Part shown: in pieces, positions 6,193 through 49,503 of the stretch
Position numbering within the stretch: the first letter of the stretch is position 1
Layout of the letters: each line of letters opens with the position of its first letter
Source: Crambe crambe
Lineage: Eukaryota > Porifera > Demospongiae > Poecilosclerida > Crambeidae
Length of the DNA stretch: 64,000 nucleotides
NCBI GenBank assembly: GCA_963924555.1
Contig: OZ004592.1
Span: forward strand, 930,001-994,000
Direction: 5' to 3'
Notes under the pieces: model-generated
The model's input: the letters and a program-made list of their open reading frames with translations, nothing else
Databases searched by the model: none
Told to the model about the DNA's origin: nothing
Translations under genes and position numbers: made by a program

Positions 6193-7893
6193 ATGGGACA
6201 AGTAGAGGGCACACCAACTTGCCAAGAACTTCGTTTGAACGATGATGGAGATTTTGTGATGGTTTCTAACTCTCTTCCAGAAGTCTTTCAATTTGACCCA
6301 TCAGAAAGCTACGTGATCGCTTATGGCATAGACAAGCAAGCTTCTCCTAAGTTTGACCATAAATCTCTCGGACCAGTCACGGTAGATGATGCTGAACAAG
6401 TTTTAAACGCCCTAGTAGAAATTGGAGCCGTTTCCCCGGGAAATGCCCACCTTTATGCAGCCTCCAGGAATAAAGGAAGTTGTACAGCTCAAGGAATGAA
6501 GAAAACTTTTCAAGAGGTGGCAAGCAAGGTCAGCCCAAATGGTCTCTTTGTGTTCCATTTTTCAGGGCATGGGATTAAAGTTCGCAATGAAGAATGGGGG
6601 TTAGCCCCTGTCGATTTTGATTACTCCCATGACACGTATGTTACTGCAAATGTCCTGAGCTCATGGTTGAATGAAATAGATTGCAAGCAAAGTATATTCT
6701 TGTCACGTTAGACTGCTGTTATGCTGGAGGTATTGGTGAAGAGCTTGCTAATCAAATGAACACTGAGCGTAATATGGATCTCTATGTCATAAGCGCCTGT
6801 AATGCGTATGAGACATCTCTTGTTCTTGGTTCTCTAGGTCATTCTGTCTTTACATACTTTCTATCACACTTTATAATGAAATACAAAGAACGTCCTGGAA
6901 CTCTCCTCATGAAAAAGATATTTTCCGAGTGTCGGATATGTTGTGAGTGTTTGACATCAACATTGGTCAGTTATAATGAGGAACGAGGTCTTCAGATGAA
7001 GCTCATGCAACCACAAATGTCAGTTCGGAACATAAAAACTTTCAGTGAAGACTCCACTGATGCAGCTGTTGAGAGATTCGATTTTGCTGTGCAGTTATAT
7101 GATCGAAGTTCACCAATGATACCACTTGATGAGAAGACAATAGCATACCTTGATTCTATTACGAATGTGCCTGATGGGCCTCTGATTCAGCTTGAGAAAC
7201 GAGGGTTGCTTAGAGATAGGGTTATCGACACAGTTCTTTGTTCCATCATGTACAGTATTGCATCACATGAGCTGGCCTGTGACACTAAACAACACACCAA
7301 AGTCAAGAACTCTAACTTGTCCATTACTGCTTTCATGCATGCTGCAGCTGCTATCGACATGATTCACCACAATGTGACCTTTATGGAAAACATTTTCTAC
7401 TTGAGTTGGTTATATTATAAAGACGTTATTTACAGCAATGATATTAAGTCAACAAAAATGGACGATCTTCATTCTAGACTTGCTCTTGACATTAAGAAAT
7501 TCAATGTACCGCTGGTTAGAGAGACTTCAAGTACAACCTGGAGGGGTGAAGATATGACCGATTCTGATGAAGTTGGAAGTTTGGTAAGTAACTAATTTGT
7601 TCAATAGAATTAGTTCTCATAAAATTAGCTTCATAAAATTATTGAATTTTTATCATGTTAGCTGAGAATAATAAGCAGAACTAATTTGTTGCTTACAAGT
7701 CCTCAAATCATTATTATTGTTTGTGCTTTAGGTCGAGCATTTTCACTCAATAAAAAGAAGTGGATTCCATTGTGTGAACTCACTGAACTGCCAGTGCAGT
7801 AGCCAGTGCTGTTTGTCTTTTTTTCTACTTTTTTTGTATGTAGCTAATTGTGCAATTTTTTTATATACATGTACTAGTAAAAAAAGTTTATAG
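6193..7893 (+). CDS. Caspase-like protein A (catalytic His and Cys kept, one frameshift, hydrophobic tail exon)
   Basis: The p20-type fold of a C14 peptidase is readable: LFVFHFSGHG with the catalytic His at about 6568, then ILVTLDCCYAGG with the catalytic Cys at about 6717, then YVISACNA and SVFTYFL. The frame with His ends at a TAG at 6709. The Cys-containing frame (from about 6690) is offset, so 2 extra or 1 missing base near 6688 separates them. Uncorrected, the protein stops before the Cys. ATG 6193 (MGQVEG) is the first ATG; the frame is open further upstream but begins with GTG. A good donor (TTG|GTAAGT, 7583/7584) and acceptor (CTTTAG|GTC, 7731) add a 53-residue exon 2 (7732-7893). 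That exon has a Cys cluster, a hydrophobic stretch and KKSL at the end, suggesting a tail anchor. The full length would be about 516 residues. It is convergent with OATP-2, 198 bp away. It could be a recent pseudogene or contain an assembly error. Confidence 0.7.
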
Positions 7894-8090
7894 CAGATAA
7901 AGTTTAATAAGCATAAGACAAAGGCTAATTATCAAATTAATGTGCAACTTTGCTGTCCATTGCATGATGGAAGTTAGATGCACATCACAGACATGCCTGG
8001 CTTTATGAAAGTACAGCTACAAGGGGAAGGGACAGTTTTAAGATCTAGCTACAACTTAAGAAGTACTATTTGAAGAGAAATGTTAGGCTT

Positions 8091-11000
8091 TTAGGCATTC
8101 TCAGTCAGATTATCAGCCTCAGTCTCTGTATTACTACTCTTTCCATTGATAGTATTTTCAAATATTATAATGCCATCAGTATTCTCCAATACTATCTCAT
8201 TGGTTGCTTCAGCCGTTATGGCCTTCTCTTCTTCTTTAGGAGACTTCTTAGGAAAGGTAAACAAAGCCAAAGACTGGAATATAATGCTAAGAAAGAGTGC
8301 ACAAATGCTTAATCCTGTCAGTGCATACGCAAGTACTGGATTGTCATAGAGCCAACAGTTGCCAACCCCGCCACACTCAAATCGAAATAGGAGGCAGACA
8401 GTATCAAAAATAGCTCCAAAGGCAATCGGTCCTGGAACAGTCCCAAGTGCACGGTACAAGAAAGACTGTATCCCAAGTGCTAATGTTCTTTGTTCATCTG
8501 TCACGGACCTGCAAGTACATTATTATTGCTTAATTGGCTGCATGGTTATAATTATGATCACCATTACCTAATGGTTACAAGAAGGTAGGGGACTTCCAAG
8601 GCAAAGACCAAGATCAAACCAATGATAGCAACAGCTAATTGGGGTGCAAACATTATGCAATTTTGGTCACATTCCCCAACAGTAGCTGTACTCATCGGTA
8701 GGAAGTCTTCTACACTCAATTCGATCAAAGAACTATTTCTCTGTTGTTGTTGCATGAGATTAGCAGCTATGCATGTGCACTCCTTGAACGAAACCTGCAT
8801 GTAAGAGATAAGTTAATCTATAACTTAGCACTAGCTCAGTGGACCATAACTAAGAAGTGTAAGTGTACTAAGCATCAGCTAATTAGCTCTCTATAATTAT
8901 AGACTATAGACTTTGATCTTTGCCATTAGGAAATGACACATCTGTAGACTGATGCAATACCAGCACCGAAATATTATATTACTAGCCATGCACCATGCAT
9001 GCATGCACACACGACATTGTACATATACACTGTACCATTGAATCATTGCCATTAGTATTCTTTAAGCAACCAGCCCTGCAAGGTGAAAAGTATGTGACTT
9101 GATCAGCACCACAAACTGGTTCATAAACAGATGAGTTACAGTTGCAAGTCATAGCACAGTTGGGAGAGATGAGAACATCAGAGTTATTCACCATTATTTG
9201 ATAGCTGTGAAAACACCATCATGCAGTGATTAACAAGATACTAGATATTGGCTATAAAATTAATGCTTACTTATCAGCATAAGGCTGCACAACGCCTGCA
9301 AGTTTTGCAGTAGGACAATGCAACAAGAAACCCAATAGAAATGGCATGGTTATACAAGTTATAGTAAGCAGGATGACCACCATTTTACGACCTTTGGATT
9401 TGGTGAGGAAAAGAATAAGGGATCCGATTATGGCTCCAATGACACCAGTGGGAATACCTATGGTTAATGCAATTGTCATTTATAGATGAGTGATAATGGC
9501 ATCATAAAATACTCACCAATAGCTCCTACAACTAAACTTGAAGTTGAAGGAGGGAAGGAAAACTGGGCTTCATAGTATTTTGGGCCAAACGCAACAAACC
9601 CAGAAACGTAGAAGAACTTGACTGTTATTGCCAGTGAAATAAAGAGAAAACTCAAAGTGGTTATCACCTGACAAAAAAGTCGAGGAAGGGCCTTGATTGC
9701 ATACTTGATGCCTGCTCCTTCAGGGGAAGCCTTCTTCGGTTTTTTGACCATTTCTTTCTCACGTTCAGCCTGGATTTCTTTGTGGTTTGGAAGCTTCTTT
9801 GGAAACAGTAGAAAAGGTATAGCGATAATCCACGACATAGCCATTGTGAAAATGAAGCACAGCCACCAGGCACCCACAAAACTAGGATCTGCTTCAATAA
9901 GTTGACCTTCTTCTCCAGGATCGACAAATACAGTCAGAAAAGCTCCTCCCAATCCAAATCCAAGAGCAGGTCCCAATATTGATAACACAAAGAAAGCTCC
10001 TAGATGAAGGGGGACATATTTTGGATGGGTGATTTCATCAATAAATGCAGGGCCAACAGTGAACAATGGGGCAGCTCCAAAGCCCATGATAAGTGCACCG
10101 ATAAAGAAAAAGGGCAGTGCGGCTGAGTTCTTCCCTGTCGCTTCTCCGCAAAATGGCGTAAAGTCCACATCACCCAAGCAAGACTCAAATGATTCACCAC
10201 CAGCTCCAGGTTGATACTTTCCAAAGACGAATTGTGGAAGAGCAAATATTAAAGCTCCTGCAAAGAATACATGAATACAACAGAATCTATGTGGACTTAG
10301 AAATCCGAAGGTCCGAGTTGGAGCACATGCAGTGAAGATTCTAAGCTTGGGGCCTGAAGGTTTCTAAAGCCATAGATTTTATTGGCCAAGGTGTCTAACT
10401 TGATTAGACACTACAGATCTATACTGTAGCTAGAGGCAAATCCAGGGGTGGGGGCCGGTGCACCCCCCTCTCAATTATGCTCATAAAAAATAGCTAGCAG
10501 AATAATACTGAGGCATGTAACTGACTTCTCATGTTTTTGCCTCTCAAATTGCACCAGATGCAATCTAAAACTTGAAAATTTTCCCGGGGAGCATACCCCA
10601 TGAACCCCCCTAGATGGTGTACTTTGCGTGCTGTGTAGCCTACCTTTAAGGTTCTACCAATTAAAATTCCGCAATGGAACCCTGGCAGTTGGTCTTACGG
10701 CATTGTGCCTCCCCCTTTTCAAATTCCTGGAAATCTGTCATCATGCATACTGAGTTATCTTGATATCTTCATGTAAAATTGTCATGGTTCTGGGTGCTGC
10801 AAGGTTTGTGCTCTTGATGTTTGTGGATTTTGAGGGAATTTTATTGTTCAAAGCCACGAAAATTTTTCACACTATAATAATAATATTATCGCAAATAGCT
10901 AGCTAGCATATCATGCTTACCTAATCCCATGGTTAGGAGGCTAATACCCAGCAATCTAGGCTTGTGACCATAACCCGCAAAGTAGCTGATGAATATCACT

Positions 11001-11781
11001 GAGACTGCCACAGCAACATCAAAGGTAGAAGCTATTGCTCCAACTTCTGTGGCAGCTAGTTGATAACGCACTTCAATGCTTGATAACACCACTGGAAAAA
11101 AACCTATTAAGGAAATCCTCATTAGTACCACCATACATGTAACAACATGGGCAATTTATTCACAAATGGCTCTCAGGAAGTTATCTTTGATAAAGAATGT
11201 AATGTTCACAAGTCATCATCATTTGTATGAGATATTGTCAAGTTCAATCCTTTTGGTACAGACAAAGATAATGTCTTGAACACACAATGCACATAGCTAC
11301 AATCACTTTCTCATCCTTCTTCCATGTGCATACATCTTCATTTTCATTCACAATGCAACTCAATTCACTGTGACCCCCCCCTTGATAATGGCAGACTCAA
11401 TAGCTATTGGATGCACTCATTCCCATGCAGGTCCTTTTTTTTTTTTTTGTAAATTAGCTAGTCAGGATTAATTATGCATCTATATGAAATGCCATTGGGG
11501 CAAGCTGCACAACAAGCCCACACCTGCTATGCTCACCCCCACTCTTTGCTCTTGTAACTTTAGCTAGCTAGTTAGCTACCTGAAGCCGCAGCGCCTTCAA
11601 TGAAGCAGAAGGAACAAAGTATAAAAGTGAAAAACTTGGCATCCCTGAAAATTTGCAAGCATTTTGGCCTGAACCTCCCGATCCCGCAGAAATATTCCTT
11701 TTCTACTTCTTCTTGAGTATCTTTTTTAACTAGGTCGACTCCATTTAAGTCAGTAAGCCTTGTAGCACTTTCAGAGTTCAT
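8091..11781 (-). CDS. OATP-2, organic anion transporter polypeptide (SLCO-type)
   Basis: Seven exons on the minus strand: 11580-11781, 10921-11103, 9517-10257, 9271-9457, 9036-9204, 8568-8794, 8091-8508. The spliced length is 2127 nt, 708 residues, with GT-AG junctions throughout. The model shows the OATP layout of 12 predicted membrane segments. The family signature (here FVGAWWLCFIF) is in exon 3, and a Kazal-like Cys-rich extracellular loop is in exon 5 (CNCNSSVYEPVCGADQVTYF, then SPCRAGC). Length fits the 650-730 residues usual for animal OATPs. These proteins take up bile-salt-like and other large organic anions across the plasma membrane; the substrate here is unknown. ATG 11781 was chosen because the coding match to OATP-1 begins there; an upstream in-frame ATG (11955) lies inside a transposon. 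A P-type element is inserted 62 bp upstream. Intron 2 carries a MITE-like insert (10443-10730). Confidence 0.9.
10443..10730. mobile_element. MITE-like insert in OATP-2 intron 2
   Basis: It begins CAGGGGTGGGGG and ends with a C/T-rich run and AAATTCCTGG, between AAATC at 10438-10442 and 10731-10735. Its interior (CACCAGAT, ACCCCCCTAGATGG) matches the interior of the element at 22631-22996, so it belongs to the same family. The inverted repeats are imperfect, so the limits are approximate. Confidence 0.5.
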
Positions 11782-11843
11782 TTTTCCATACCATAGATAG
11801 ACTACGTATGCGTATACGCTGGTCTCGCGCGCCGACCTTTTAC

Positions 11844-13914
11844 CATAGATACTATAACCTCCGGACACGGGATTGGAAACGGGCTCACGTGCGCCTATGA
11901 CAACCATTGAATTGCTTGCGTGCACTCCGCGTTGTAATTTTTGTTGACTGCACATAAAAGGAGAATAAAGACAGCGCTCTGAAGCGGATGAATAGAGCGA
12001 GCCGGTAAGAAAATAATTTATCTAATACTTTATACTACTCATTTTGATACTTAAAACAAAAATTTAAACCCTAGTTCATTAATATGGCTAGTTTTACCGT
12101 GGTTGGTCAATTCCTGGAGAAGAAAACTGTGTGAAAGGTTTTCTGTGTTGAATTAAACTATTTTGCATTAATTTTTCCACCAAATGGTATACATAGAGAT
12201 AAAGTTTGTTATAGAATGCTTTTTTCCCCTAAGACTTGAATATTACTGGGAAAAAATCTGGGTTTCGTAAGTTCAGGAGGCCATTAATGTTTGTAATTGT
12301 GTGCTCAATTTACCAGTCTGGGAGAAGTTTACTATGAAAAATAACTAGTTGATGTTGTAGCAAAATAAAAGTAGTTTTGCATGTGCATAGTTAGAGGAGT
12401 TGACTTTTAGTGTAAGCCTTAAGTTACACATCATAAATATGCTATAACCATAAACTTTAAAAACCAAATTGGGTGGTTATACTCCTACCTGTGATGATTT
12501 TTATTATTACATTTTATTTTATATATAGTGGCTAAAAGAAGAGTTTCTTGTCTATTTGGATGGAGTATAAAAGCAATGAAAGGGTTTTCCAAAGTTGAGA
12601 AAAAGAAAATGCTCCTTAGCCCTGAGACCTTGCTGGGTTTGAAAATGACAGGTAGCTAGCTAGCTAGAGCTTCTTGTTAGCTTGCTAATATTCTATTATC
12701 ATTAATGGAATATTCTGTTTTCCATTGATGGAGTGAAAAAAAAAAATTTGAGTGAGCACCTTTGCCAGGATCCACTGAAAAGTTTTGTGGGTGCCAGCGA
12801 CAAAGAGGTGGAACTCATGATAATCCTAGTGTCAAGGAATTTATCAACAACACTCAAGCACTATGGGTGATTAATGCATTTTGCAGAGGTCCAGTTAGAG
12901 GCAATTGCAGGGCTCACAGTTCCAAGCCTGATTTAGAAAAAGAAAATGCAAAGCAGAGAATGATTTCCAAACATGAATGAATCATTATAATATATTCAGA
13001 AAAAATATGCATGCTGCATGAATTCTTGATTTATTGGTGATGAGGACCTTTAGAATGTTGGAGGGACTTCTGCTTAAAGTTTCAACCACGCATCACCAAA
13101 TGAGAACTCCCTCATCTTGATCCACCCTTCAATGATCATTTTCAGCAACTCCTTCCCAATTTTGACATTCATCCTAATATATAGACCAATTCATTACTTC
13201 TCCCATGATTTCATCTTTTTTCTACATGACATTTCTTAATTGCTCCTACAATAGTATACCATGGACTCTGTCCTTCACAGTTCTATATATGTATCCAGCA
13301 GCATACCTCAAAGTGGCTCTTGATAAGAGAAAGGACATGCTGCTGTAACAGTAGATCCCCATCATATGTTCACCTAAAAAAAAAATCAGATGATATTCTG
13401 GAAGATGGGAAATTCATCACATTTTCTTCCACATTAAGATGAATTCATCCGATGAACAAATGCTATAATTATAAACTCCCACCTTTGTTTACAGCTGACT
13501 TTAAATAGTCAGAGCTGTTTCAAGTTTGCTAGCTGCAAGAGAGTTATATGCATGGTGCCTGGACTGCAGGAATGAATGTCAGCTTTCAAGTTTTGCTTTA
13601 ATCCATTGCAGAGATGCAGAAGCATCTGATGAAGGAATTTTAAACCCATTAGCTACCTTCTTTTACTGCCTGAATTAATATCTCAGACTCACTGAGAGGG
13701 GCCTAAAAAGTGAATTACATAGCTGGATTTAAGGTATGCTTACTTGTAGTTGAAGACGTTTCTCCTATAGCTTCAGCCATTATTTGCGAAATACTTGCCT
13801 TCACTACTGTTTGGCAACGTCTTTGCTGACTCAGCAAACAACGCGGATTGTATTCTAAAATCTCGCGCGAACCACCCGTTTCCAATCCCGTGTCCGGAGG
13901 TTATAGTATCTATG
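11844..13914 (+). mobile_element. P-superfamily DNA transposon, 2071 bp, defective
   Basis: Near-perfect inverted repeats of about 40 bp occupy 11844-11883 and 13875-13914 (outer bases CATAGATACTATAACC). The flanks CTTTTAC at 11837-11843 and 13915-13921 are a 7-bp direct repeat. P elements begin with CA and make 8-bp duplications, so this is close. The interior keeps a P-transposase-like C-terminal block (12541-12980). The paralogous locus lacks the element. It lies in the 5' flank of OATP-2 and has separated the gene from its original upstream DNA. Confidence 0.8.
12541..12980 (+). pseudogene. P-element/THAP9-type transposase remnant
   Basis: Plus-strand pieces read KRRVSCLFGWSIKAM and LLSPETLLGLKMTG (about 12530-12655), then LSEHLCQDPL in one frame. 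After a frameshift near 12785 come FCGCQRQRGGTHDNPS and NNTQALWVINAFC, followed by RGNCRA. The QDPLE-FFGCQRQRG and NTQALRVIN blocks are typical of the C-terminal part of P-type transposases. The THAP DNA-binding domain and most of the catalytic core are gone, so it cannot encode a working enzyme. Confidence 0.7.
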
Positions 13915-14099
13915 CTTTTACCAACCGGGCCGCGAGGCCGAGGAAAGGAAAGGGTCGGCGCGCGAGACTACACCACTTCATCCTGAGAGCAAATCGGCCT
14001 AGTAAGAAGTGACTTTCACCAACTGCTTCGCTCGCCAATTGAATATGTTACACGACCGGTCCCTACACTTCAATCTTAACAAGGAAAAGACTTAAAGTT

Positions 14100-14880
14100 G
14101 TAATTTAATCCCAGTTTCTATAGCTACAGGTCCCAATTGTGGAGACCTATGTTCATCAAAGTAGTAGTCATAATAGAACAACTACAACGCAGAGCCACAA
14201 AGTTCATTTTACAAGACTATACTTCCAATTACAAATCTAGACTTAAATCTCTTCATCTGTTGCCGCTCATGATGTTGCTTGAGCTCAACGACATTGATGT
14301 TTCTCATTAACAATCTGAAAAATCCCCTCCAATTCTTTCGATATCTCCAATTATCATTCAGTTCAACTGCAACCAGGTCGGGTTCCCTCAGACCAAGATC
14401 CATCTCCAACTCCCAAAGACACTTCTATTTCAACAGGCTGACTAGATTATGGAACTCTGCCACCAATTGATATAACCTTCAGTGCTCCTACCATCGCATC
14501 AAAAATCCAAACTCAAAGATTACTTTTGGTCAATTTTTCTGAGAAGTTTTGAAATAACACTTGCACATTCCATCTTGTCTGCCCTTGCCGAAACTGTATG
14601 TCAAATTCCAAGCCACCTAATTATAATTATAAGACATGTAACCATTAACCAATGTTGTTGTTTTTTGTTTGATTGTTTGTTTGTTGTTTTTTTTCGTTGT
14701 TTTTTTTAAATTTTAATCCTCTTCTGGTTGCCAGGCCAGTCTTGGTGGACCCTCAGCCTGCTCTAATTGCCCCATCTTCTTTTTTTTTTGTAACTTATCT
14801 CATTTCTTAAACGTCATCTTGTGCTGTAAATCATAAAAAAAATAAAATAAAATAATAATAATTAAAAGGAAAAAAATCCT
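14100..14880 (+). mobile_element. Non-LTR retrotransposon 3' end, copy B
   Basis: Near-identical counterpart of 3141-3935. The frame LELNDIDV, the FRYLQLSFSSTATRSGSLRP block and HFYFNRLTRLWNS are clearer here than in copy A. It ends in an A/T simple repeat (AATAAAATAAAATAATAAT, about 14838-14862). It is shared by both segmental copies, so it predates their duplication. Confidence 0.65.
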
Positions 14881-15439
14881 GTAAGTTAAGCAGCAGCCAG
14901 AATAACAGTGCAGATGAATTCACTGCGACTGATATTTAATAACTGACTGTGGAGCTATGCAGTTCTTAGTCCACTATAATTATGGATCATGTCACCCCCT
15001 ATGTTGCTGAGGTAGCTTAGCTATAAACATGTACATCATGTGCAGCAAATTAGCTACAGCTAACACACATGGGTACATGGACAGTTAGAGTGAAGTGACA
15101 TGCATTTGTGTAGACATGGAACTGACTGAGTGTAATCAAGGGCATATTGAGCTAGCCACGAAGCAGCATGCAACTTCTAAGGTAGACAGCATATTAATGT
15201 AAGATGTTACTAAAAATAGTGTCAGTGAACATGCAGAAATAGCCTAACCACAATCATAATCATGGACCTGTAAATTTCATGCACTGCTGATCAAAGTTGT
15301 CACTCTTGACAGATTATGAGTCCAGAGTAGTGACTTATTATAGCAGTCTGTATGCTCTATTACAAGTTAACTCTTTTGTACATAAAGAAGTCAAGTAATG
15401 TAATGGCAGAATCCATGGTCCAATAGGTGTGATTCTTTT

Positions 15440-16386
15440 GAACAACATAGAAGATCCTTGGGGCCGGGGAATCCTTAGTGGAAGATGGAGGTTCAAGCTG
15501 AGAAGTCAACTGGTAGGAATATCAAAGTCCTTCGTACTGATAAACGGAGGTGAACTGAGTTTGCCAATGGAGTTGTTAAATGTTACAAGGCAAGGCTATA
15601 GTTGCTTAACGCTATTCCCAAAGATTTGGACTTGACTATGAAGAAACGTTTGCTTTGAGTCAGTTTGGTCAGTCACTGTTGTTATACATATATACACACC
15701 TAGCGCCATTGGATTCTGCTATAAGGTGCATGTGCACAAACTTGTACACATTTCCTGAATTAGCTAACATACATGGCCATATTATGGGTACATGGACAGT
15801 TAGATTTATGTGACATGCATTCGTGTAGACATTGCAAAAATCCCATCCAAATTAGAACAAGTAGTGGAATCAATAGAAGTGACGGAAAGAGACCTGATGG
15901 AGTTACCCTTTGCCCTTGAAAGTGCAGCAGAATTTTGGCATGAGACTTCACTTGTCCTGACACCTTTTCTTCATCGCATGTTAGCCTGGCTGCTTGTGAA
16001 GCAGGAAATGTGGCTAATGAAGCAGAACACAAGAAGAAGGTCAAATATTCTAACTTAGGAGATCAGTACCTCTTTGTCCCATTGGCAGTGGAGACGTCAG
16101 GGTCCTTTGGTTCGGCTGCCATGTCATTTATTAAAGAACTTGGGAGAAGGATTAGGGACAACACTGGGGACGTCTTATTTTTATTTAATGCAGAGATTGT
16201 CTATAGGGATACAAAGAGGCAATGCTTCTGCTGTGCTGGGGACTTATTCATTATTCATTTAATCATATTGTTGTTGTTATATGTTGTTGTTGTTATATGT
16301 TGTTGTTATTATATGTTGTTGTTGTTGTTGTTAATAATAATAATAATAATAATTTCCCTAGGTGTACACTTTAGCAAAGTTGTAAT
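15440..16386 (+). mobile_element. Second non-LTR retrotransposon remnant, copy B
   Basis: Counterpart of 4880-5640. The frame around 16010-16200 has FVPLAVETSGSFGSAAMSF and ELGRRIRDN. A second frame, 16074-16262, ends in IGIQRGNASAVLGTYSLF, showing the frameshift that split the original protein. A (TTG)n/(TAA)n stretch at 16266-16352 marks the 3' end. Confidence 0.65.
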
Positions 16387-16387
16387 T

Positions 16388-16545
16388 GTGACAGTCGAGG
16401 GTAGAAATCAAACTTTATTCACACTTTTACTTTTGAAAAAAAAAAGTTCGAAAGGCAGAAAATTTCATTTTAAAGCATCAGTCATGACAAAAGTAAACTT
16501 TGAAAAAAACGTGAATAAAGTTTGATTTCTACCCTCGACTGTCAC
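16388..16545. mobile_element. MITE, 158 bp, 35-bp perfect inverted ends, AATT target duplication
   Basis: The ends GTGACAGTCGAGGGTAG and CTACCCTCGACTGTCAC are exact complements continuing for about 35 bp. AATT at 16384-16387 and 16546-16549 flanks it. The paralogue at about 5637-5645 reads TGTAATTGCATG with a single AATT, so the insertion and its empty site are both seen. No coding capacity. Confidence 0.85.
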
Positions 16546-17391
16546 AATTGCATGACGATAGCTAGCTCATCACGGAATTTGGTCTCTCCAGGAGCAGAAT
16601 CCTTATAATGTGGAATGAATATCATCAACAGGATCAACAGAGGAAGTACACTTATATAATCATAGCTATGCACTGTGTCTTGGTCACGCTCTTTCATGTT
16701 ATGTGGAATGCATAAAGCCACGTATATTGCTCATGAAATATTTACAGTAGACGAACCGTGTGGAGACACCATTAATTAGGTTTAGACACACAAACACACA
16801 TGTCTTCTTTAGATCATGCATGCATGGGCATCAAGCCTTTTAGTTACAAGCATGCAATCAGTTGACAAAGCAACTTCCTCATAAGAATAGCTGGTCATTA
16901 TAGCTAGCTATACTAACTACATTGATACTACTCAGGCATGCAAGGAAGCATTAAAATCATTAAGATTGTCATAAAAAAATATTAAACATGCATGAAATCA
17001 CCACATAGCTACACCAACATCTCTTTTATGTAATCACATGTATAGGTTTCAGATATGTTTGAGGGAGGACGTGAGACCACGCAAAGGCCATTAAGTTAAA
17101 ATTTGATCTGTTCATTATAATAAATATAATATATTGTCTGGCAACTGGTACATGGTGTACACAACTATGTAGTTACATAATCACACAGTCATAATAATAA
17201 GGCTAATACCTTATGTTATTATATACATTGTTTGAAAAACAGTGTGCATGTTTACATTAACTATTCAAGCAAAGTAAAGAGTTAAGTAGTTAATTCAAAC
17301 AGGGTTAATAACAATCGTTATGTTTTGACTGCGTTCACATTCTCAAAGTAAAGAGTTAAGTAGTTAATCCAAACAGGGTTAATAACAATCG
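16546..17391. other. Spacer before OATP-3; caspase gene absent at the expected place
   Basis: 16546-17010 is shared with 5646-6050. In the first copy a caspase-like gene follows at once; here the match ends near 17014 and no caspase-like frame is found before OATP-3 begins. A 74-bp tandem duplication (17271-17344 and 17345-17418) covers the last codons and 3' flank of OATP-3. Confidence 0.6.
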
Positions 17392-17418
17392 TTACGTTTT
17401 GACTACATTCACATTCTC
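17271..17418. repeat. 74-bp tandem duplication over the OATP-3 stop codon
   Basis: Units 17271-17344 and 17345-17418 both begin AAAGTAAAGAGTTAAG and end TTCACATTCTC. The gene's own stop is in the right-hand unit (17392-17394), so the left one is a non-coding copy of the C-terminal tail in the 3' flank. Confidence 0.85.
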
Positions 17419-22495: not shown

Positions 22496-22499
<4 letters not shown>

Positions 22500-22538: not shown

Positions 22539-22542
<4 letters not shown>

Positions 22543-36481: not shown

Positions 36482-36893
36482 GGTCAGAATGAAGTCCTGC
36501 TGTGCGTGATACTCCAGTTAGTAGTTCTATGCATCTAATCTGGCCTGGCCTGGCAGATCCTTATATACAGAAAAATCCAGGCCAAATCATGCGCATGTGC
36601 AATAGGCCAAAATCTGATGCGTTTACGATAGTTTACGGTTGGCTCTATGCTGCACGTTCGCTGGGATGTACAACATTCTTTCCACTGCATTGCAGCGCGT
36701 AATATGAGCTATAGCTAGTTATAATTGCATCTCAATATCCTATAGTAAAAATTAAAAGCACAAACTAGAAGATATAAACCTCACTCACTATGCTAAATCC
36801 CTACATATGCATGAATTCCACAGAGAAGACTTCTCATGGGATTGAGATTAGCTATGTTCAAAGGTAAGATACCAAACAGTGACATTTAGCTAG

Positions 36894-36989
36894 TAGTCTC
36901 GCTAGCCAGACTCCTTTCCCCTCACTATCTCGCTCACTATACTTTGCATAAAGATAGTGAGGGGAAAAGGAGTCTGGCTAGCGAGACTA
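36894..36989. mobile_element. Near-perfect 96-bp palindrome (foldback MITE)
   Basis: Arms of about 38 bp begin TAGTCTCGCTAGCCAGACTC and end GAGTCTGGCTAGCGAGACTA. There is one length difference in the arms and a short loop around CACTATACTTTGC. It is absent from the matching spacer near 31020, so it is a later insertion or was lost there. Confidence 0.75.
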
Positions 36990-37299
36990 GACATGTAGCT
37001 GGTTTGACCTATATCTGGCAAGTAGCTATTGGGGGAGCTGGTTTAGCTAACTGTGAGGATTGTGACTTGGACATGGATGTACCTAATTACTCTATGGTGT
37101 ACGTCTTACACTGAGAAGAAGGAGTTCTAGCTATATAGCTAGACTAACAAGAAAGTCACTTTCATGATTCCAGTTTGTGACCCACTAGCTTTTGGCATGC
37201 ATTATAGCTAATGACCACTCATGTGTGCATGTGTCTACTGGACAACATACCGGGCTCTGTCCCAGCCTAGAAACTATATTTGACTGCTCCTAGCCTCCC

Positions 37300-37386
37300 T
37301 CTCCCCTCCTCCCTCTCCCCTCCTCCCTCTCCCCTCCTCCCTACCCCCTCCTCCCTCTCCCCTCCTCCCTACCCTCCTCCCCCCTT
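37300..37386. repeat. Pyrimidine-rich (CTCCCTCTCCC)n tract
   Basis: About seven units of a CTCCCTCTCCCCTC-like repeat on one strand, purine on the other. The matching spacer at about 31470-31500 has almost none of it, so it expanded here. Confidence 0.85.
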
Positions 37387-38617
37387 TATTTCCTTGAACC
37401 ACACAATCAAAACTGCATGGAAGCCCTTTCAATTCATTGACTGAAATCTCCTCATGCAAGCACGGTGAGCATGCACATGCTAAACATTTACCTTCCCTCA
37501 GTATGTCACGTACATCAATCCTTTCAAGTTCAAAATATGTATATAATTGCTATAACAAGATTATTCAATGTGTTTTCCTGAGGAACAATAGTAATATGTG
37601 CTCCAAGCACATGTATGCATGCAGCAGCATTGTCATATGTAATCATTTTGTGTGGTTTTTATACCAAAACTGTAATTGTGAGCATGCTCAGACTCAATAT
37701 CTAGCTCTAAGTATTTTAATGCGCCTGCACGAGCATTATGGTGCATCATGCATTAAAACACATGGAGCTAGATCAGACTGATCCAAAGAATTTAGTGCTG
37801 ATCACATGACTTGGATCGGTCCAATCAAATTCCAGTTGGTCCTTACAGAACCCTAGCCTAGCCTAGTACCTATGTAGCAAGCTCTGATACACGTTGCATG
37901 GGTTGATCAGCATGATATTCAAGGTAATTCCTGTTTGAAACCCAATGTAACTAGTGAAAATTTAATGCTAAAAGAAGACTTTAAGCTTATTCACTTGTTG
38001 TAAGCACTAGGGACTAAGGCTGGAAGGTTGGATCTTCCACTAGGCTCCTGTGTACCTTCAGCACAGTTTCCCAAGTGTGCACTAAAGATTTACAATATAC
38101 TTTAAGAGATTTAAAGCACACTGCACACTTTTCAGAGGATCTGATTGGTCTAATATACCACTCAAAGGTCCCTTATCATTTGAATTGTCTGTGGCTGATA
38201 GTACCTAGTGAGAAGAAGGACTAAATACATGTGTCATGAGGGATGTGCAGAGTATCATAATTATTATGTATAAATACGTCTACAAATTTGCATCTTAATT
38301 AACCAGATTGTCTGTCTCTATTTCACTCTGCCTACCACTCAATGACCCTTTGTAAGTCATTATACAATCAAATTCCACCCACTCACTGAGCATGCCCAAC
38401 ATGTGTTACTATAGTTACTGCTACAGAGGGTGGACCACAGATAGTCACTGTTGTGATTGTGGTTAGCAGATAAGAGGGTTTGTCTTGCCAATAATAGCCT
38501 ATAGTGGCTGTGGCATGTGACCCAATGATTGTTGATAAATAAAGTCAGGGCCAAACTGTCTTATAATGAAACCATAGAGCTGGTTGTAATTCTTCCTCAG
38601 AGATATATATAGCTATT
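37387..38617. other. Spacer before pseudo-caspase B, no gene seen
   Basis: The left part repeats the OATP spacer. From about 38390 it matches 44335-44640 upstream of pseudo-caspase C, so the latter part is the shared 5' flank of that gene pair. An in-frame CCTCAG acceptor-like site just before the ATG could mark a 5' UTR intron. Confidence 0.45.
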
Positions 38618-40090
38618 ATGGCAGAGGCACTGTGTTATGACTTCAAGCACAGCTCCATGCTGATACTAAGCAGCAGTGAAAGCAGTGGATCGGGTGAACA
38701 ACGCAACAACGATCAAGATGCACAACATATTCAAAATGTCTTGAGAGGCAGTGAGTTTATCCAAGATTCACTTCATATTTCTTCATCTGGCTATTCAAGT
38801 AAGAAGGGACTCCAAGAATCTTTTGAAAAGCAACTCTCCAAGGCTGTTGTAACCAATTCTGATGGTTATGGTGGCTTATTTGTCTTTGTGTATTGTGGAA
38901 AAGCGTGTGATTTATGGGATCATGGCCTCTGTCTAAGTCAAAGTGCTCCAGATGAAGATAACTTTGTCATAATTGAACCTGACATCACTAAATCCCGGTA
39001 TGTTTTGATTTTAAATGACTTTAAGCCTGAAAGTCATAAAGATCATGTTTCTGGTGCAACCATTGGTTCTATGATAGCGAATATAGAGTCCAAACCCAAG
39101 CAGATTTTAGTGATTCTGGATTGTCCTTTTGCAGAAGAAATAAGTTCGGATCTGTCAAAGCAATTGAAGGCAATGAAGGGTTGTGAATTGAAATTGTACA
39201 CTCTAGTGTCACAATCAAAGGGTCAAACCCCATACGTCATTGATGCTTTAGAATGCTCAATCTTCACCTATTTCCTTACCACCATTTGGTCAAAGACTGA
39301 GTTCACAGGCGGTATGTTTCCCCTCACCCCCGTCTTTACCAAGATAAGGAAATGCTGTGAAGCACTCTCATCAGTGATAAGTGATGGGAAAATTATGAAA
39401 AACTTTATCATCCCAAAAGCGAAATTCATGAAAATTCCCAATGAATCAAATGCAAAAATGGAAGCAATACAAGGGGAACAAGAAGAATGTGATTCGTGCT
39501 GCAAGATAGACAGTGGAGGTCACATTAGGCCTATAATGAAAAACTTTACCATTCCAAAAGCGAAATTCATGAAAATTCCCAATGAAGCAAATGCAGAAAT
39601 GGAAGCAATACAAGAGGAACAAGAAGAATGTGATTCGCACTGTGAAACAGACAGTGGAGGCCAATTCGGCAAGTTCCTCCACAAGTACTACAAAAAGCGT
39701 TTCTTCAGTCGCACCAAGCTGCATGATGAAGTGATAGATTGGGCACATAAAACAGCAGAAGGTCCTTTAACAACTCTTAAAGAGGAAGGAATGTTTGAGG
39801 GAAAAGTATTGGAAGCTGTCGTTGAATCCATGATGTTCAGCGCTGCCACCATTCAAAATGAGCTTGTTAGTGAGAGCATAGCTGACTCAAACATATTCAT
39901 AGAGGCCTACATTTACGTGGCAGCTGCCATTGATATAACAGATAATTCTGTTGATGTTTCAAGCATCCCTTTGCTCAAGCGTGCCCAACATTCGTACATG
40001 AAGGTACTACATATCAACTCTGTCAAAGATAACGAAATGTGTGAGTTAATCGAAAAAATGGATCGTGATACACCTAATATTTTTATGTAA
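38618..40090 (+). CDS. Caspase-like protein B, both catalytic residues replaced
   Basis: A single open frame of 490 codons with an ATG at 38618. It aligns along its length with caspase-like protein A: LFVFVYCGKA stands where A has LFVFHFSGHG, so the catalytic His is Lys (residue 95). ILVILDCPFAEE stands where A has ILVTLDCCYAGG, so the catalytic Cys is Pro (residue 170). The downstream SIFTYFL is kept. The N-terminus is a Ser-rich SSSESSGSG stretch. Residues 260-306 are repeated at 307-353 (MKNF.IPKAKFMKIPNE), a 141-bp tandem duplication absent from copy C. The C-terminal half is helical with no known domain, and there is no hydrophobic tail. It is convergent with an OATP remnant 253 bp away. 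A non-catalytic regulatory role is inferred from the intact frame. Confidence 0.8.
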   Translation: MAEALCYDFKHSSMLILSSSESSGSGEQRNNDQDAQHIQNVLRGSEFIQDSLHISSSGYSSKKGLQESFEKQLSKAVVTNSDGYGGLFVFVYCGKACDLWDHGLCLSQSAPDEDNFVIIEPDITKSRYVLILNDFKPESHKDHVSGATIGSMIANIESKPKQILVILDCPFAEEISSDLSKQLKAMKGCELKLYTLVSQSKGQTPYVIDALECSIFTYFLTTIWSKTEFTGGMFPLTPVFTKIRKCCEALSSVISDGKIMKNFIIPKAKFMKIPNESNAKMEAIQGEQEECDSCCKIDSGGHIRPIMKNFTIPKAKFMKIPNEANAEMEAIQEEQEECDSHCETDSGGQFGKFLHKYYKKRFFSRTKLHDEVIDWAHKTAEGPLTTLKEEGMFEGKVLEAVVESMMFSAATIQNELVSESIADSNIFIEAYIYVAAAIDITDNSVDVSSIPLLKRAQHSYMKVLHINSVKDNEMCELIEKMDRDTPNIFM

Positions 40091-40343
40091 CTATGGCTTT
40101 AGAGCTGGAAAGGAAACTTCTCATAGGAACTGTTTAGTGTGCTAGTGTAATTACAAAGTTTTGTTTTGTGTACAAAAATAATTATAATAGCTACTGTTAT
40201 CCTGCTATTGTTAGCTATTAATAATCTTTTGAATCAGTGGTGATAAAATGATGGCAAAAAATTAATATTTAAGGAGGGGGGGAAGGTGTGGATTTAGCTA
40301 GCTACAGTATTACAACTATACATGCTGGCTGGATTTACTTTCT

Positions 40344-41000
40344 TTAGTTTTGCTCTTCTTCTTTGGCAACTTCTTCCAGAGGAATGGTATTAGTCACTGG
40401 GTACTTCGGTTCTGGTCTCTGCTTGGGATATGTCAGCCATGAGAGAAAGGAGAAGATGAAATTGGCACCTATTCCAATCAGAACCATTGCTAATATGGAA
40501 TAGCTTAGCTGAGCATTATTATAGACCCAAACCCAAACGGAAATGCACACACGCCAGATCAAAAATAACACCAAAGACAATTGGACCTGGTACATTACCA
40601 AATACTTGAAAGACAAGCCGAGAGCTAAAATTCTCTGTTCTTCTGCGTGGACTAATTACATACACTCTGCTTTCTTCGTTATCTTCCCTTCCTTCCACTT
40701 TTTTTATTACAGGTTGTATCATTTTTGCTCTGCCAGAATTTGTCTTCTGTTGAATTAGCCATAAAATGGTGCGAATAATTATGATTCGAGTCCACTGGAC
40801 ACTTGACACATGAATACGTAATGTATTAGATGCAATGATAATTATCGAGCATACCTAATCCCTGGATCAAAAGGCTGACACCCATCCACCTGTGCTTATG
40901 ACCTTTCCCTCCAAAGTAACTGATGAAGAGAACTGTCATAATCACTGCCATATCAAAGACAGAGGCTATCAATCCAACTTGAGTGCCAGTCAGTTGCAGG
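40344..41000 (-). pseudogene. OATP remnant with internal deletion and an inverted piece
   Basis: 40344-40645 matches exon 7 of OATP-6, with a 33-bp-scale deletion around 40525 (the GNCWVY region) and a short one at 40613. 40850-41000 matches exon 2 plus flanking intron. Exons 3-6 and exon 1 are missing. Between these pieces, 40675-40743 matches the first part of exon 3 and its intron but on the plus strand, so a fragment was inverted during the rearrangement. Not able to encode a transporter. Confidence 0.85.
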
Positions 41001-41036
41001 GTCTATAAATTTTGCTGAATTATCATGTGGCTATTG

Positions 41037-42059: not shown

Positions 42060-42074
42060 ACCATGGTAACATAC

Positions 42075-43108: not shown

Positions 43109-43280
43109 CCATAATGGTCAATTTTGCTGCTGTGGTCATTAATTTCCTTGTTGGGCTTAGCTAGTTCTTTCCAAAGTTTTTTGAAGCCTGGCATATGGGG
43201 CATCCCTCATGAGCCTATTTCCAGAGTTATTAGCTTTGTGTTGTATCCTGCATCCTCAGCTCTTGTCACTAGCTCTGCAT

Positions 43281-43282
<2 letters not shown>

Positions 43283-43364
<82 letters not shown>
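43283..43364. repeat. (CT)n microsatellite, about 40 units
   Basis: An uninterrupted CT repeat, without unit variants. Adjacent open frames consist of Ser-Leu or Arg-Glu and are artefacts. Confidence 0.98.
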
Positions 43365-43367
<3 letters not shown>

Positions 43368-44414
43368 CAGTGATAGTCTAAAAGCTAGATCTGTTATGTG
43401 AAGTATCAGGACACTATGCAGGCCACCATTGATTTGAGCACTGTTTGTGTATGGACTCCTATACAAGAGGGAAATTCATGTCACCATAATTCCGTGGTTA
43501 GTGAGATTTTGCAGCTAGCTATTTATACTAATAACAAAAACTCCTTGTCAGTTCAGTCCATTGAATACTCTGTTATTGTGTGCCCCTCCTGCTACCTACC
43601 TCCCACACCTCTGACTTACATATTTGTGTGTGGCTCATTTAACTGCTGAATTCCAATAAATGAATTTTTAAACTCTTTCAAGTAAAAATGGCATCTTTTA
43701 GTGTAGGAATTGATACCCTGTCCGACTTCAACGTAGCAATTTCATTATAACTCTATTCAACCATCATCCATTTATGGTGCCAGGTTCCCCTAGCTAACAG
43801 ATTTAATACACACTAACTAGAAATGGCTCCTCAGATTTGAAAGGGTTCAGAGTAAAGGAGTTTGGTCCATTATACTTCCAACCAGCTTTATTAAAATTGA
43901 GATTTATAAAAATTGAGTTCATTCTCAGTGGGAAATGATAATGTAAAAAAAGTATTTAAAAAAATGTAATTGAGTTTGATCCAGTCTGGCTTTGAACTTC
44001 TGCCAAATCTTGTGGATGTCTTTTACCATACGTGAACTTGTTCATCGCATCGTCACTTCATTCAGTGAGCTATCCTCAATGTGCTGCTCATGGAAACTTG
44101 GCAAATTAAATTGCTGGAGGGGAAAAGGGGGGAACATTAGTGACAGACCAGCAGTGTACAATGTTGGACTGCATGTGCAATGCGTGCTAGCACATAATCT
44201 CTGTCAACCTGCACAACCAGTCACCAATCAAAAGCACTGTGGGGTGAGCGTGCATGCTCAGTTTACCCAATGGTTGTCATGTACATAATTATGGGGTTCC
44301 CTTCAATTGCCTTAATTACCTTTAATTACTCTAGTATGTTACTATAGTTACTGTCATAGAGAGTAGACCTGTTGTGATTGTGGTTAGCAGATAAGAGGGT
44401 TTGTCTGCCAATAA
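43365..44414. other. Spacer, no supported gene
   Basis: Only short open frames without domains. No convincing exon, RNA gene or repeat recognised. Confidence 0.5.
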
Positions 44415-44585
44415 TAGCCTATAGTGGCTGTGGCATGTGACCCAATGATTGTTGACAAATAAAGTCAGGGCTGGAAAAACCCAGGGGGAAAAGACTGTCT
44501 TTATAGTGGCTGTGGCATGTGACCCAATGATTGTTGACAAATAAAGTCAGGGCTGGAAAAACCCAGGGGAAAAAAACTATCTTAC
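44415..44585. repeat. Tandem duplication of about 85 bp upstream of pseudo-caspase C
   Basis: CTATAGTGGCTGTGGCATGT through GGAAAAACCCAGGGG occurs twice in a row. The matching flank of pseudo-caspase B (about 38498-38570) has it once. Confidence 0.8.
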
Positions 44586-44653
44586 AATAAAAACACATTG
44601 CAGTCCAAAGAGCTGGTTATAATCCTTCCTCAGTAGTGAAAGAGATAGCTATT

Positions 44654-46009
44654 ATGGCATCTCAGATGGATGAGCTACCAGAGGATGAACTACCAAAGGC
44701 ACTGTGTTATGACCTCAAACACAGCTCCATGCTGATACTAAGCAGCAGTGAAAGCAGTGGATCGGGTGAACAACGCAACAACGATCAAGATGCACAACAT
44801 ATTCAAAATGTCTTGAGAGGTAGTAAGTTTATCCAAGATTCACTTCATATTTCTTCATCTGGCTATTCAAGTAAGAAGGGACTCCAAGAATCTTTTGAAA
44901 AGCAACTCTCCAAGGCTGTTGTAACCAATTCTGATGGTTATGGTGGCTTATTTGTCTTTGTGTATTGTGGAAAAGCGTGTGATTTACGGGATCATGGCCT
45001 CTGTCTAAGTCAAAGTGCTCCAGATGAAGATAACTTTGTCATAATCGAATCTGACATCACTAAATCCCGGTATGTTTTGATTTTAAATGACTTTAAGCCT
45101 GAAAGTCATAAAGATCATGTTTCTGGTGCAACTATTGGTTCTATGATACAGTCCAACAAACCCAAGCAGATTTTAGTGATTCTGGATTGTCCTTTTGCAG
45201 AAGAGATAAGCTTGGATCTCACAAAGCAACTGAAGGGTTGTGAATTGTACACTCTAGTGTCACAATCAAAGGGTCAAACCCCATACTTCATTGATGCTTT
45301 AGAATGCTCAATCTTCACCTATTTCCTTACCACCATTTGGTCAAAGACTGAGTTCATAGGTGGTATGTTTCCCCTACACCTCACCTTTACCAAGATAAGG
45401 AAATGCTGTGAAGCACTCTCATCATTGATGATGGTCAGTGATGGGAAAATTATAACGAAAAATTTTACCATCCCAAAAGCAAAATTCATGAAAATTCCCA
45501 ATGAAGCAAATGCAGAAATGGAAGCAATACAAGAGGAACAAGAAGAATGTGATTCACACTGTGAAACAGACAGTGGAGGTCAATTCAGCAAGTTCCTCCA
45601 CAGGTACTACAAAAGACGTTTCTTCAGTCGCACCAAACTGCATGACAAAGTGAAGGATTGGGCACATAAAGTAGCAGAAGGTCCTTTAGCAATTCTCAAA
45701 GAGGAAGGAATGTTTGAGGGAAAAGTATTGGAAGCTGTCATTGAATCCATGATGTTCAGCGCTGCCACCATTCAAAATGAGCTTGTTAGTGAGAGCATAG
45801 CTGACTCAAACATATTCATAGAGGCCTACATTTACGTGGCAGCTGCCATTAATATAACAGATAGTTCTATTGATGTTTCAAGCATCCCTTTGCTCAAGCG
45901 TGCCCAACATTCGTACATGAAGGTACTACATATCAACTCTGTCAAAGATGACGAAATGTGCGAGTTAATCGAAAAAATGGATCGTGATACACCTAATATT
46001 TTTATGTAA
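44654..46009 (+). CDS. Caspase-like protein C, both catalytic residues replaced
   Basis: A single open frame of 451 codons starting at ATG 44654 (MASQMDE); the frame is open to a GTG at 44636 but that is not an ATG. It is about 95 percent alike to protein B by eye. It shares VYCGKA in place of SGHG and LDCPFAEE in place of LDCCYAGG, so it also lacks the His-Cys dyad. It has only one copy of the IPKAKFMKIPNE segment that is doubled in B, and an extra DELPEDELPK at the N-terminus. It is convergent with OATP-6, 202 bp from its stop. The intact frame and shared substitutions suggest the loss of catalysis predates the B/C duplication and that the proteins are kept for another use, such as binding a true caspase. 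Confidence 0.8.
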   Translation: MASQMDELPEDELPKALCYDLKHSSMLILSSSESSGSGEQRNNDQDAQHIQNVLRGSKFIQDSLHISSSGYSSKKGLQESFEKQLSKAVVTNSDGYGGLFVFVYCGKACDLRDHGLCLSQSAPDEDNFVIIESDITKSRYVLILNDFKPESHKDHVSGATIGSMIQSNKPKQILVILDCPFAEEISLDLTKQLKGCELYTLVSQSKGQTPYFIDALECSIFTYFLTTIWSKTEFIGGMFPLHLTFTKIRKCCEALSSLMMVSDGKIITKNFTIPKAKFMKIPNEANAEMEAIQEEQEECDSHCETDSGGQFSKFLHRYYKRRFFSRTKLHDKVKDWAHKVAEGPLAILKEEGMFEGKVLEAVIESMMFSAATIQNELVSESIADSNIFIEAYIYVAAAINITDSSIDVSSIPLLKRAQHSYMKVLHINSVKDDEMCELIEKMDRDTPNIFM

Positions 46010-46210
46010 CTATGGCTATAGAGCTGGAATGGAAACTTCTCATAGGAACTGTTTAGTGTGCTAGTGTTTTTTTTTTTGTGTGTGTAAAAAATATACTGCT
46101 ATTGTTAGCTATTAATAATCTTTTGAATCAGTGGTGATGGCAAGAAATTAATATTTAAAAAGGAGGGGGAAAGGTGTGGATTTAGCTAGCTACAGTATTA
46201 CTGGCTGGCT

Positions 46211-49200
46211 TTAGTTTTGCTCTTCTTCTTCGGCAACTTCTTCCAGAGGAATGGTATTAGTCACTGGGTACTTCGGTTCTGGTTTCTGCTTGGGATATGT
46301 CAGCCATGAGAGAAAGGAGAAGATGAAATTGGCACCTATTCCAATCAGGACCATTGCTAATATGGAGTGGCTTAGCTGAGCATTGTTATAGACCCAACAG
46401 TTTCCACGTCTGCGGCATGGAATATTGAATCGGAAATGCACACACGCCAGATCAAAAATAACACCAAAGACAATTGGACCTGGTACGTTACCAAATACTC
46501 GAAAGATAAGAGATTGCAAGCCAAGAGCTAAAGTTCTCTGTTCTTCTGCTACACACCTGTGAATTAAAAAAGATAATTAAAGGGATCCTCTCTTCTTATT
46601 AATGGGAATGGCACCTTATGGTTATAAAGACATTGGGTACTTGAAGTATGAAGAGAACAAACAAAGCAATAACTGAAAGACCTGCGAATAGACTGAGGTT
46701 ATTGCATCCTTGGTTACAGGCCCCCACAGTAGCTGTACTATTCCTGAGCAGATCCTCTCGGTCAAAGGTCATGTTTGATATCTGCTCCAGGTTGGCAGCA
46801 ATGCAAGTGCAGTTCTCAAAAACTGGCCTCTATAAAACAATCTGCATCTGATGAAACAATGGCTGAATTTAATAGTATTACCATTGGATCATTGTTGATG
46901 AATCCCTTGTTGCAACCTGCCCTGCAAGGTGAAAAGTGTGTTATGCCATCAGCACCACAGACTGGTTCATATATCTCTGAAACGCATCGGCAATTGATTG
47001 AGCATTGTGGTGTGATTGGACCAGCAGGAAGTGGAAGTTTAAACCTGCAGAGATGTATATTCATGACCAACAGAATGTTGCAGTTGTAACAATAAGTGGC
47101 ACACTTGGTATTATTCTGAGCCAGCCTAAAAATAAATAAATAAAAAACAGAGAAAGCTGTTTTACCCATCAGGTGCATAGGGGACAGTGACTCCACCAAG
47201 CACTGTACTGGGACATTGAATCAGGAATACAAGTAGAGGAGGCATCGCTAATAATGTTACTATCCAATTGACAAGAGCAACATTGCGACCTTTGGACTTA
47301 GTGAAGTATATGATGAGAGCACCTACCACCACACCAACAGCACCGGTTGGAATGCCTGGAAATTTACCAAAAGTAAGATTCTATGTTAGAAGTAATCATA
47401 TATATGCCTACTGCTCCTGCAATTAACTGTGTTAGGGTTAGTGTGCTAGAAACAATCATACCTACTGCTCCTGCAATTAAACTGGCAGTTGCTGCAGTAA
47501 GGGAAAACTGAGACTCATAGTACTTTGGAGCAAAAGCTGTAACTCCAGTGACAAAAAAAGCTGAGAAGCTGATAGCTATAGTGATGAAGATCCAGCTGGG
47601 TGTTGTTATTATCAGAAGCAAGTGTCGAGGAAGAGATGCGAGCTTGGTGCAAAAGTTCTTGTCTTCTTTGGACATGTCTCTTCCATATTTTCGTGCCATT
47701 TCTTTATCACGTTCGGCTTTGACTAAGTGGCTATCTGGAAGCAAGCGTGGGAACATTAAAAAGGGAATGGCGATAATCCAAGATATAGCAGCTGCAAAAA
47801 AGAAGCACAACCACCAGGCTCCTACCCAACCTGGCTGTGAAGGATCTAGGAATGTTTCTTTCCAAGGATCAACATAAACAGTAAGAAATCCTGCCCCCAC
47901 TCCAAATCCAAGGGCTGGACCCAAAATTGACCACATGAAAAATATTCCAAGATGGATGGAGACAAATTTCGGTCTAACAATTTCATCAATATAGGCCGGC
48001 CCGATGGTAAACAATGCAGCAGCTCCAACTCCAATCACAATATTGCCAATGTAGAAGAATATGAGTGAAAGACTGTTTCTGTTCTCAATAATGCATGGTG
48101 GTATTTCTGGTACCATCATTGAAGTATTACCAGTTGTAGTGTTATCATCAACTGCGTCATTCATCATCTGATTATTCCCCATACCAGCAAGTCTTAGAAA
48201 AAATTCCAAGCAGGATTCAAGGCGGAAACTAGGATCAGTTTCGTAGACACCAAAGACAAATTCTGGCAGAGCAAAAATGATACAACCTGCAAAAAAGAGT
48301 GGAAGGAAGGGAAGATAAAAGAAATGTAATTAGGTACAAATCTCCACTATATATACTATCTATAAAGATAATCACTTGATCATCAGCCATGATTATTATT
48401 CCACCCCTTTTTTGCTGTTGGTGCAAAATAATTATAATGATCCATTAACTTCGAGTCCACTGGACACTTGGCACGTGAATACTTGGAACGTATAATGTAT
48501 TAGGTCCAGTGATAATTATCGAGCATACCTAATCCCTGGATCAAAAGGCTGACACCCATCCATCTGGGCTTATGACCTTTCCCTCCAAAGTAACTGATGA
48601 AGAGAACTGTCACAATCACTGCCATATCAAAGACAGAGGCTATCAATCCGACTTGAGTGCCAGTCAGTTGATAGCGACGCTCCAAACTTGACAACACGAC
48701 TGATATGAAACCTACATCATCATCATGTATAACAACCAATAATATGATGTAAGGTATTGCCATGCCAAGAATCATGGCAGTTACTTTGCTAGGAAGGAGA
48801 AGATGATAATTATTGACTATTTATGTATACATGAATCAATATCATCCCATAATTTAAATTAATCATTGCCCATTACCATCAAGCTAGCCACAGATAATTA
48901 AGTATCCATGACAATGTGCAGTCAATCTCTTGATCTTGAGTTCATTAGATCTGTATGCAGCATGACTCATTTCCCTAGTTACTTTTTTTTCACTTTGGAA
49001 TGCTATCCCAATCATATAATAATCATGTGTCATATGGCTTGCTTGATGAACCACTAGCTTACATGTAGCTAGGCAGGAAAACTTACCTGTGGGCAGGTGT
49101 GACATTCATGTATCTATGCAATTAAAAGAGCTGGGACTGATATGATAGCTGAAGAAAGACTTTGACTATTTTGAGAGGCAATAAGTCTCCATACATACTT

Positions 49201-49503
49201 AAACTCCATGCTGTCCGTGCTGCATGCTGTACATAGATGTGGCTATGCCCCACCAAATTCCTGCAAATATAATAGCTACCTACCTGAGGCCAGGGCTCCT
49301 TCAATGAAACAGTTGCAGCAAAGTAGAAAGGTGAAAAATTTAGCATCTCTAAAAACCTGCAGACACTTGGGGTTCCACTTTCCAATCCCACAGAAATATT
49401 CCACAGGCTTTTCCTCGTTTGCTTCGAAGTCTTTATTCTGTATAAATTCAACTTCTTCGATTGCTTCATTTTCAGTCACAGGTTTTTCCTTGTCTCCTTC
49501 CAT
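46211..49503 (-). CDS. OATP-6, organic anion transporter polypeptide (SLCO-type), most divergent copy
   Basis: Seven exons: 49284-49503, 48529-48711, 47462-48286, 47166-47355, 46882-47044, 46615-46829, 46211-46556 (2142 nt, 713 residues). Exon 3 is 78-84 nt longer than in the other copies because of an extended first extracellular loop with NTS-type sequons. The OATP signature reads GWVGAWWLCFFF. The Kazal-like exon 5 encodes INCRCVSEIYEPVCGADG and SPCRAGC. Exon 7 is short, ending in an acidic EEVAEEEEQN tail. Part of the exon 3 donor region is tandemly repeated in the intron (20-bp matches at 47407 and 47461), but only the upstream one keeps GT. ATG 49503 opens a Glu-rich tail before the conserved YFCGIGKW motif. 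Divergent from Elongin A, with 149 bp between start codons. Confidence 0.9.

Follow-up and report, generated by a model that had tools for sequence, protein, structure and literature searches.

Convergent caspase-like and OATP gene pairs in a tandem OATP array of the sponge Crambe crambe are probably by-products of local duplication

Tandem arrays of SLCO/OATP genes (PF03137) are known in animals, and members of the OATP family import amphipathic anions. Members of the C14 family are cysteine peptidases, and pseudocaspases are catalytically dead relatives of the caspases. To our knowledge, C14-class genes within the gaps of an OATP array have not been described. Such a locus is reported here for Crambe crambe, in a stretch of 64,000 nucleotides (positions 930,001 to 994,000 of contig OZ004592.1, assembly GCA_963924555.1; C15:930001-994000 in our numbering) that is referred to as the window. 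Positions are counted from its first letter, and negative coordinates lie to its left. The genome searched comprises 143.1 Mb in 119 contigs. Based on tblastn and a PF03137 profile search, an array of seven OATP genes and one remnant is found inside the window and to its left. Like the known arrays of animals, it has a one-strand run of OATP paralogues, recent duplicates and one decayed copy; unlike in those, C14-class genes occupy gaps. With a probability of about 0.9, as judged from sequence, this would be a tandem OATP array of the ordinary kind, with two C14-OATP segments that were each copied in full, so that a functional link is not demanded. The striking repeated arrangement would then be mostly a by-product of local duplication.

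The original prediction had described three plus-strand caspase-like genes, each tail-to-tail with a minus-strand OATP gene or OATP remnant and 200-250 bp from its 3' end. All three are present where it had placed them: C14_1 (6193..7893) faces OATP2 (8091..11808) in pair A2, C14_2 (38618..40090) faces the remnant (40344..40996) in pair B1, and C14_3 (44654..46009) faces OATP6 (46211..49425) in pair B2. A fourth pair, A1, lies just left of the window and had escaped it; here, C14_0 (-4838..-3438, plus strand) faces OATP1 (-2943..903, minus strand), the 5' part of which is 1..903 of the window. All C14 genes of the array (4/4) stop a short way ahead of a minus-strand OATP gene or remnant, at its 3' side. 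The identity of the transporters is illustrated by the middle exons of OATP2 and OATP6, which score 202.1 and 205.5 bits on PF03137 (cut-off 25.8). Measured between stops, the gaps are 197 bp in A2 (7893 to the OATP2 stop at 8091-8093), 253 bp in B1 (40090 to the remnant stop at 40344-40346) and 201 bp in B2 (46009 to 46211). The predicted spacing is borne out, with a reserve for the end of C14_1 at 7893, which was set by eye from a predicted intron (GTAAGT donor near 7585, acceptor near 7751) and a small last exon. If only the main open frame is counted, C14_1 stops at 7595 and the gap to the OATP2 stop widens to about 495 bp.

Self-comparison by blastn revealed that both sets of pairs lie in duplicated segments. 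In unit A, -4968..187 matches 6063..11243 with 97% identity over 5,221 aligned positions, and the match continues piecewise at 85-95% to 6055 and 17014. This makes a tandem unit of about 11 kb with C14 gene, OATP gene and spacer, present as a first copy at -4968..6055 and a second at 6063..17014. Unit B is about 6 kb in length, with copies 86-92% identical; 38404..40646 matches 44337..46549 at 86-88% and 40785..40996 matches 48450..48670 at 92%, the first copy extending over 38404..40996 and the second over 44337..48670. The 3' flanks of pairs B1 and B2 are homologous, as predicted, with 91% identity over 199 aligned bases. A third local duplicate, OATP4 (27502..30303, minus strand) and OATP5 (33679..36493, minus strand), is 84% identical and carries no C14 gene; the stretch 36792..38225, which the upstream spacers of these two genes match, stops some 180 bp short of unit B, which starts at 38404. 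Co-duplication of whole units, which had been put forward as the null, is supported for both pair sets. That all pairs trace to one recent segmental duplication is nearly right: the origin is segmental, in two duplications and not one. Since pairs A and B were each duplicated whole, one or two adjacencies became four pairs.

Next to these duplications stand unpaired copies of both gene classes, which the proposed mapping of OATP and C14 genes revealed in this genome. The OATP search gave 27 exon matches, with 23 in the array (seven genes and the remnant), three on contig C12 and one on C19. The PF03137 cut-off was passed by 26 of the 27, one of these only together with its neighbours, and the C19 match lies below it. 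The C12 matches (C12:3916912-3923505) were taken as one gene. Searches for the C14 class gave nine matches with C14_3 as query and 31 with C14_0; together they revealed four class genes in the array, four more on C10 (open frames 5419595-5421073, 5423830-5425224, 5425335-5426756 and 5558167-5559627) and 21 short fragment matches on C9. Neither did the C14-class searches list a match on C12, nor the OATP search one on C10 or C9. For large families, these match counts are minimum values. As illustrated by these numbers, four of nine OATP loci (eight genes and the remnant) and four of eight C14-class members are paired, and within this genome pairing is not kept wherever OATP and C14 genes occur. 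A broader C14 search yielded 46 matches, five of them of this class; none of the remaining 41 lies less than 1 Mb from an OATP gene of C12 or C15. As a separate observation, a C14_A piece of about 160 bp (window 7172-7338) sits in a repeat on C9 and is 90% identical in copy L058. This repeat is found on the plus strand at 7.05-7.55 Mb, with a few pieces up to 7.92 Mb. An 801-bp query gave 65 matches, 63 on C9 and two on C15, not all of which hold the C14 piece.

The partners also decay independently. Pair B1 has lost its OATP gene and keeps C14, and in pair A2 C14 is broken as assembled, with OATP2 free of exon lesions where compared. C14_1 has a 1-bp deletion at about 6684 relative to its 99.6% identical sister C14_0, and the frameshift disrupts its caspase domain. 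OATP2 differs from OATP1 over 8094-11243 by nine indels, of which seven lie outside exon blocks and two (9023 and 11122) inside the margins of tblastn blocks, the latter being assigned to introns by eye. No exon lesion is present in this compared part, which leaves out the first exon, in a more diverged stretch (85%). In pair B1, the remnant has frame-breaking gaps of 26 and 10 bases, a large internal deletion and a missing 5' part. The C14_2 gene beside it has a single frame of 490 amino acids; its sister C14_3, with 95% DNA identity in the coding part, has 451, and both frames are open. All five gaps between them are multiples of three, versus three of eight in the 5' and 3' flanks. Nonsynonymous (dN) and synonymous (dS) divergence are 0.040 and 0.087 over 437 codons, a dN/dS of 0.46 (Fisher p 0.004). 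This indicates purifying selection on at least one copy since the split. For C14_0 and C14_1, dN/dS is uninformative, as only six substitutions separate them. Whether partners decay together is a cheap test of functional pairing claims, and here they do not.

C14_0 matches the caspase family PF00656 (E 1.4e-11, 45 bits), and so does the first part of C14_1 (E 3.8e-6, 27.2 bits), the cut-off being 21.4. C14_0 also matches the bacterial NCBIfam family NF047832 (caspase, EACC1-associated type) at E 3.9e-15, with 55.9 bits versus a cut-off of 140. Like the caspase-like C14 peptidases of these families, it carries SGHG and DCCYA, but it differs from them in falling far under the NF047832 cut-off and in a long C-terminal part without significant Pfam match. 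SGHG and DCC.A are invariant in five aligned members of the class, and we take them to be the His and Cys active-site motifs of C14 peptidases. C14_0 and the C10 genes, which keep these motifs, would be cysteine peptidases. A search of PDB sequences with C14_0 gave a single match at chance level (E 0.11). Bacterial and archaeal relatives of the class are 23-39% identical among the best 80 of 198 matches, mostly over the caspase domain; a recent transfer of the class from bacteria was considered and, at this identity, is unsupported.

The C14_2 and C14_3 genes are far more diverged. Neither matches a Pfam family at E 1, and C14_3 none at E 10 either; C14_3 weakly matches NF047832 (15.2 bits, E 0.011). 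Both were likened to C14 through their similarity to the pair-A class (E 6e-15, 27% identity) and through this weak match of C14_3. In place of the DCC[YH]A of the class they have DCPFA. The catalytic Cys presumed at this position from other C14 families would thus be replaced by Pro. Their His region aligns ambiguously, owing to a 7-residue insert. A structure model of C14_2, built from three window rows, has a mean pLDDT (predicted local distance difference test) of 36.4, which is too poor to judge a caspase fold. C14_2 and C14_3 are probably a fast-evolving, catalytically dead pseudocaspase branch with a kept reading frame. With pseudocaspases they share the DCPFA, the kept frame and a dN/dS below 1, and they differ in that their inactivity is predicted and the His region ambiguously aligned. 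The modest remaining interest of the locus lies in this diverged, probably inactive caspase-like branch. Within C14_2, about 130 bases are repeated in tandem (39392-39522 and 39533-39663), a duplication that is absent from C14_3.

How the pairs came about can be outlined as follows. One or two C14/OATP adjacencies would have formed by chance, and whole-segment duplication then turned them into four pairs. The OATP and C14 genes would, most likely, do separate jobs, the OATPs as predicted importers of amphipathic anions. We infer both the chance origin of the adjacency and a convergence without function. The array leaves little choice of orientation. Six of its seven OATP genes and the remnant are on the minus strand, and a plus-strand gene that lies in a gap of such a run will face its right neighbour tail-to-tail and diverge from its left one. 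For a gene class that arrived independently once or twice, the orientation carries the weight of one or two coin tosses. In the sponge Amphimedon, the median intergenic distance is 587 bp (PMC4773876; PMC4432959). There, 21.0% of the gene junctions are tail-to-tail, and among these 5,830 junctions 1,580 overlap and 2,190 more are under 1 kb, together 3,770 (PMC4773876). By this yardstick a gap of 200-500 bp would be ordinary, if the present genome is alike.

Several points weigh against co-duplication without function. The base rate of close tail-to-tail genes is that of another species, Amphimedon, and all four C14 genes of the array are convergent with an OATP gene or the remnant, none standing alone in the array. 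The gene models are predictions, an assembly error may account for the C14_1 frameshift, and the OATP2 indels at 9023 and 11122 were placed in introns only by eye. Furthermore, the C14 genes of pairs A and B are far apart. C14_0 is 26% identical to C14_2 and C14_3 and 38-48% to the C10 genes, and in the C14 tree C14_2 and C14_3 sit on a very long branch (2.4), their placement relative to C14_0 and the C10 genes not being resolved. Outgroup rows of this tree were L001, L002, L004, L005, L006 and L008 (L003 and L007 were omitted), and C14_1 was omitted from the trees because it is frameshifted. The OATP tree, (OATP6,((1,2),(3,(4,5)))), joins the pair-A OATPs with the unpaired OATP3-5 and not with OATP6 (support 89/93); it is based on the middle exon only, has identical rows for OATP1 and OATP2 and omits the remnant. 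Taken together, the C14 distance and the OATP tree suggest either two origins of the pairing or a single one accompanied by loss of C14 beside OATP3-5. Two separate arrivals of one class, each just past the 3' end of an OATP gene, would be mildly coincidental.

An alternative history starts from a single ancient C14-OATP unit, older than the split of OATP1-5 and OATP6; C14 would later have disappeared beside OATP3-5, and copies would have been transferred to C10. We regard such a history as possible, at somewhat less than even odds. Both C14 groups are oriented alike at the OATP 3' side, with comparable spacing, and one C14 class is involved instead of two unrelated ones. However, no C14 relic adjoins OATP3-5, as a search of eight gaps, including those beside these genes, found none (best E 0.24). 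Comparing the 3' flanks of pair A with those of pair B revealed no DNA homology, either at E 1e-4 or in the self-comparison, and C14_0 is nearer to the C10 copies than to C14_2 and C14_3. The ancient unit is an older form of co-duplication and compatible with the explanation preferred here; selection on the pair is needed by neither the one-origin nor the two-origin history.

Shared termination or selection on the pair had been named as alternatives in the original prediction. In this case, a convergent pair would be kept for shared 3'-end processing, for antisense overlap or for a joint role in the uptake of death-inducing compounds. With partners 197-253 bp apart (in A2 about 495 bp by the main open frame), overlap of the 3' untranslated regions is plausible, and in both pair-A gaps an AATAAA on the plus strand and an ATTAAA on the minus strand, both poly(A) signals, face each other. 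However, neither motif occurs on either strand of the pair-B gaps, 5/9 OATP loci and 4/8 C14-class genes are unpaired, and loss has hit either partner while sparing the other. Close tail-to-tail genes are also common in the compact Amphimedon genome (PMC4773876). Selection on the pair therefore gains no support and is very unlikely; the existence of unpaired copies in both classes and the independent decay led us to reject functional pairing. A joint search of the literature for OATP and caspase-like proteins found no such link by title or start of abstract, and none among the sponge-OATP papers listed. Just as improbable is an ancient convergent unit kept in some lineages by shared 3'-end regulation, in which the dead C14_2 and C14_3 would now be regulatory beside the transporter. 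Carriage of the C14 genes by mobile elements that favour array gaps is unlikely too, if less so. The class shows one long open frame, the C14_A gene piece recurs many times on C9, and the unit-A spacer holds a duplicated open frame of 145-193 amino acids. Against this, segmental duplication accounts for the array copies, although the repeat search behind this judgement was a general one, not aimed at element ends or target duplications around the C14 genes.

The remaining features of the array and window are as follows. The minus-strand genes OATP1-OATP6 and the remnant extend from -2943 to 49425, including OATP3 (17392..22140), which like OATP4 and OATP5 has no C14 partner. OATP0 (-14153..-10696), identified by tblastn and PF03137, is alone on the plus strand. 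At the right-hand border of the array, an open frame at 49860-50606 matches a Med26/TFIIS helical bundle (E 2.7e-8). The unit-A spacer open frames at 5120-5557 (145 amino acids) and 15944-16525 (193 amino acids) are duplicates, perhaps of a decayed mobile element; a Pfam search with the latter gave no convincing match (best E 0.85). Based on a general repeat search, a tandem array of a repeat of about 62 bp at 2346-3024 is open in several frames on both strands, and the 12-mer TATGTGCTGAGG forms a tandem array at 4062-4217. Adjoining the first exon of OATP2, a perfect 40-bp inverted repeat is present at 11844-11883 and 13875-13914, with its arms 2 kb apart.

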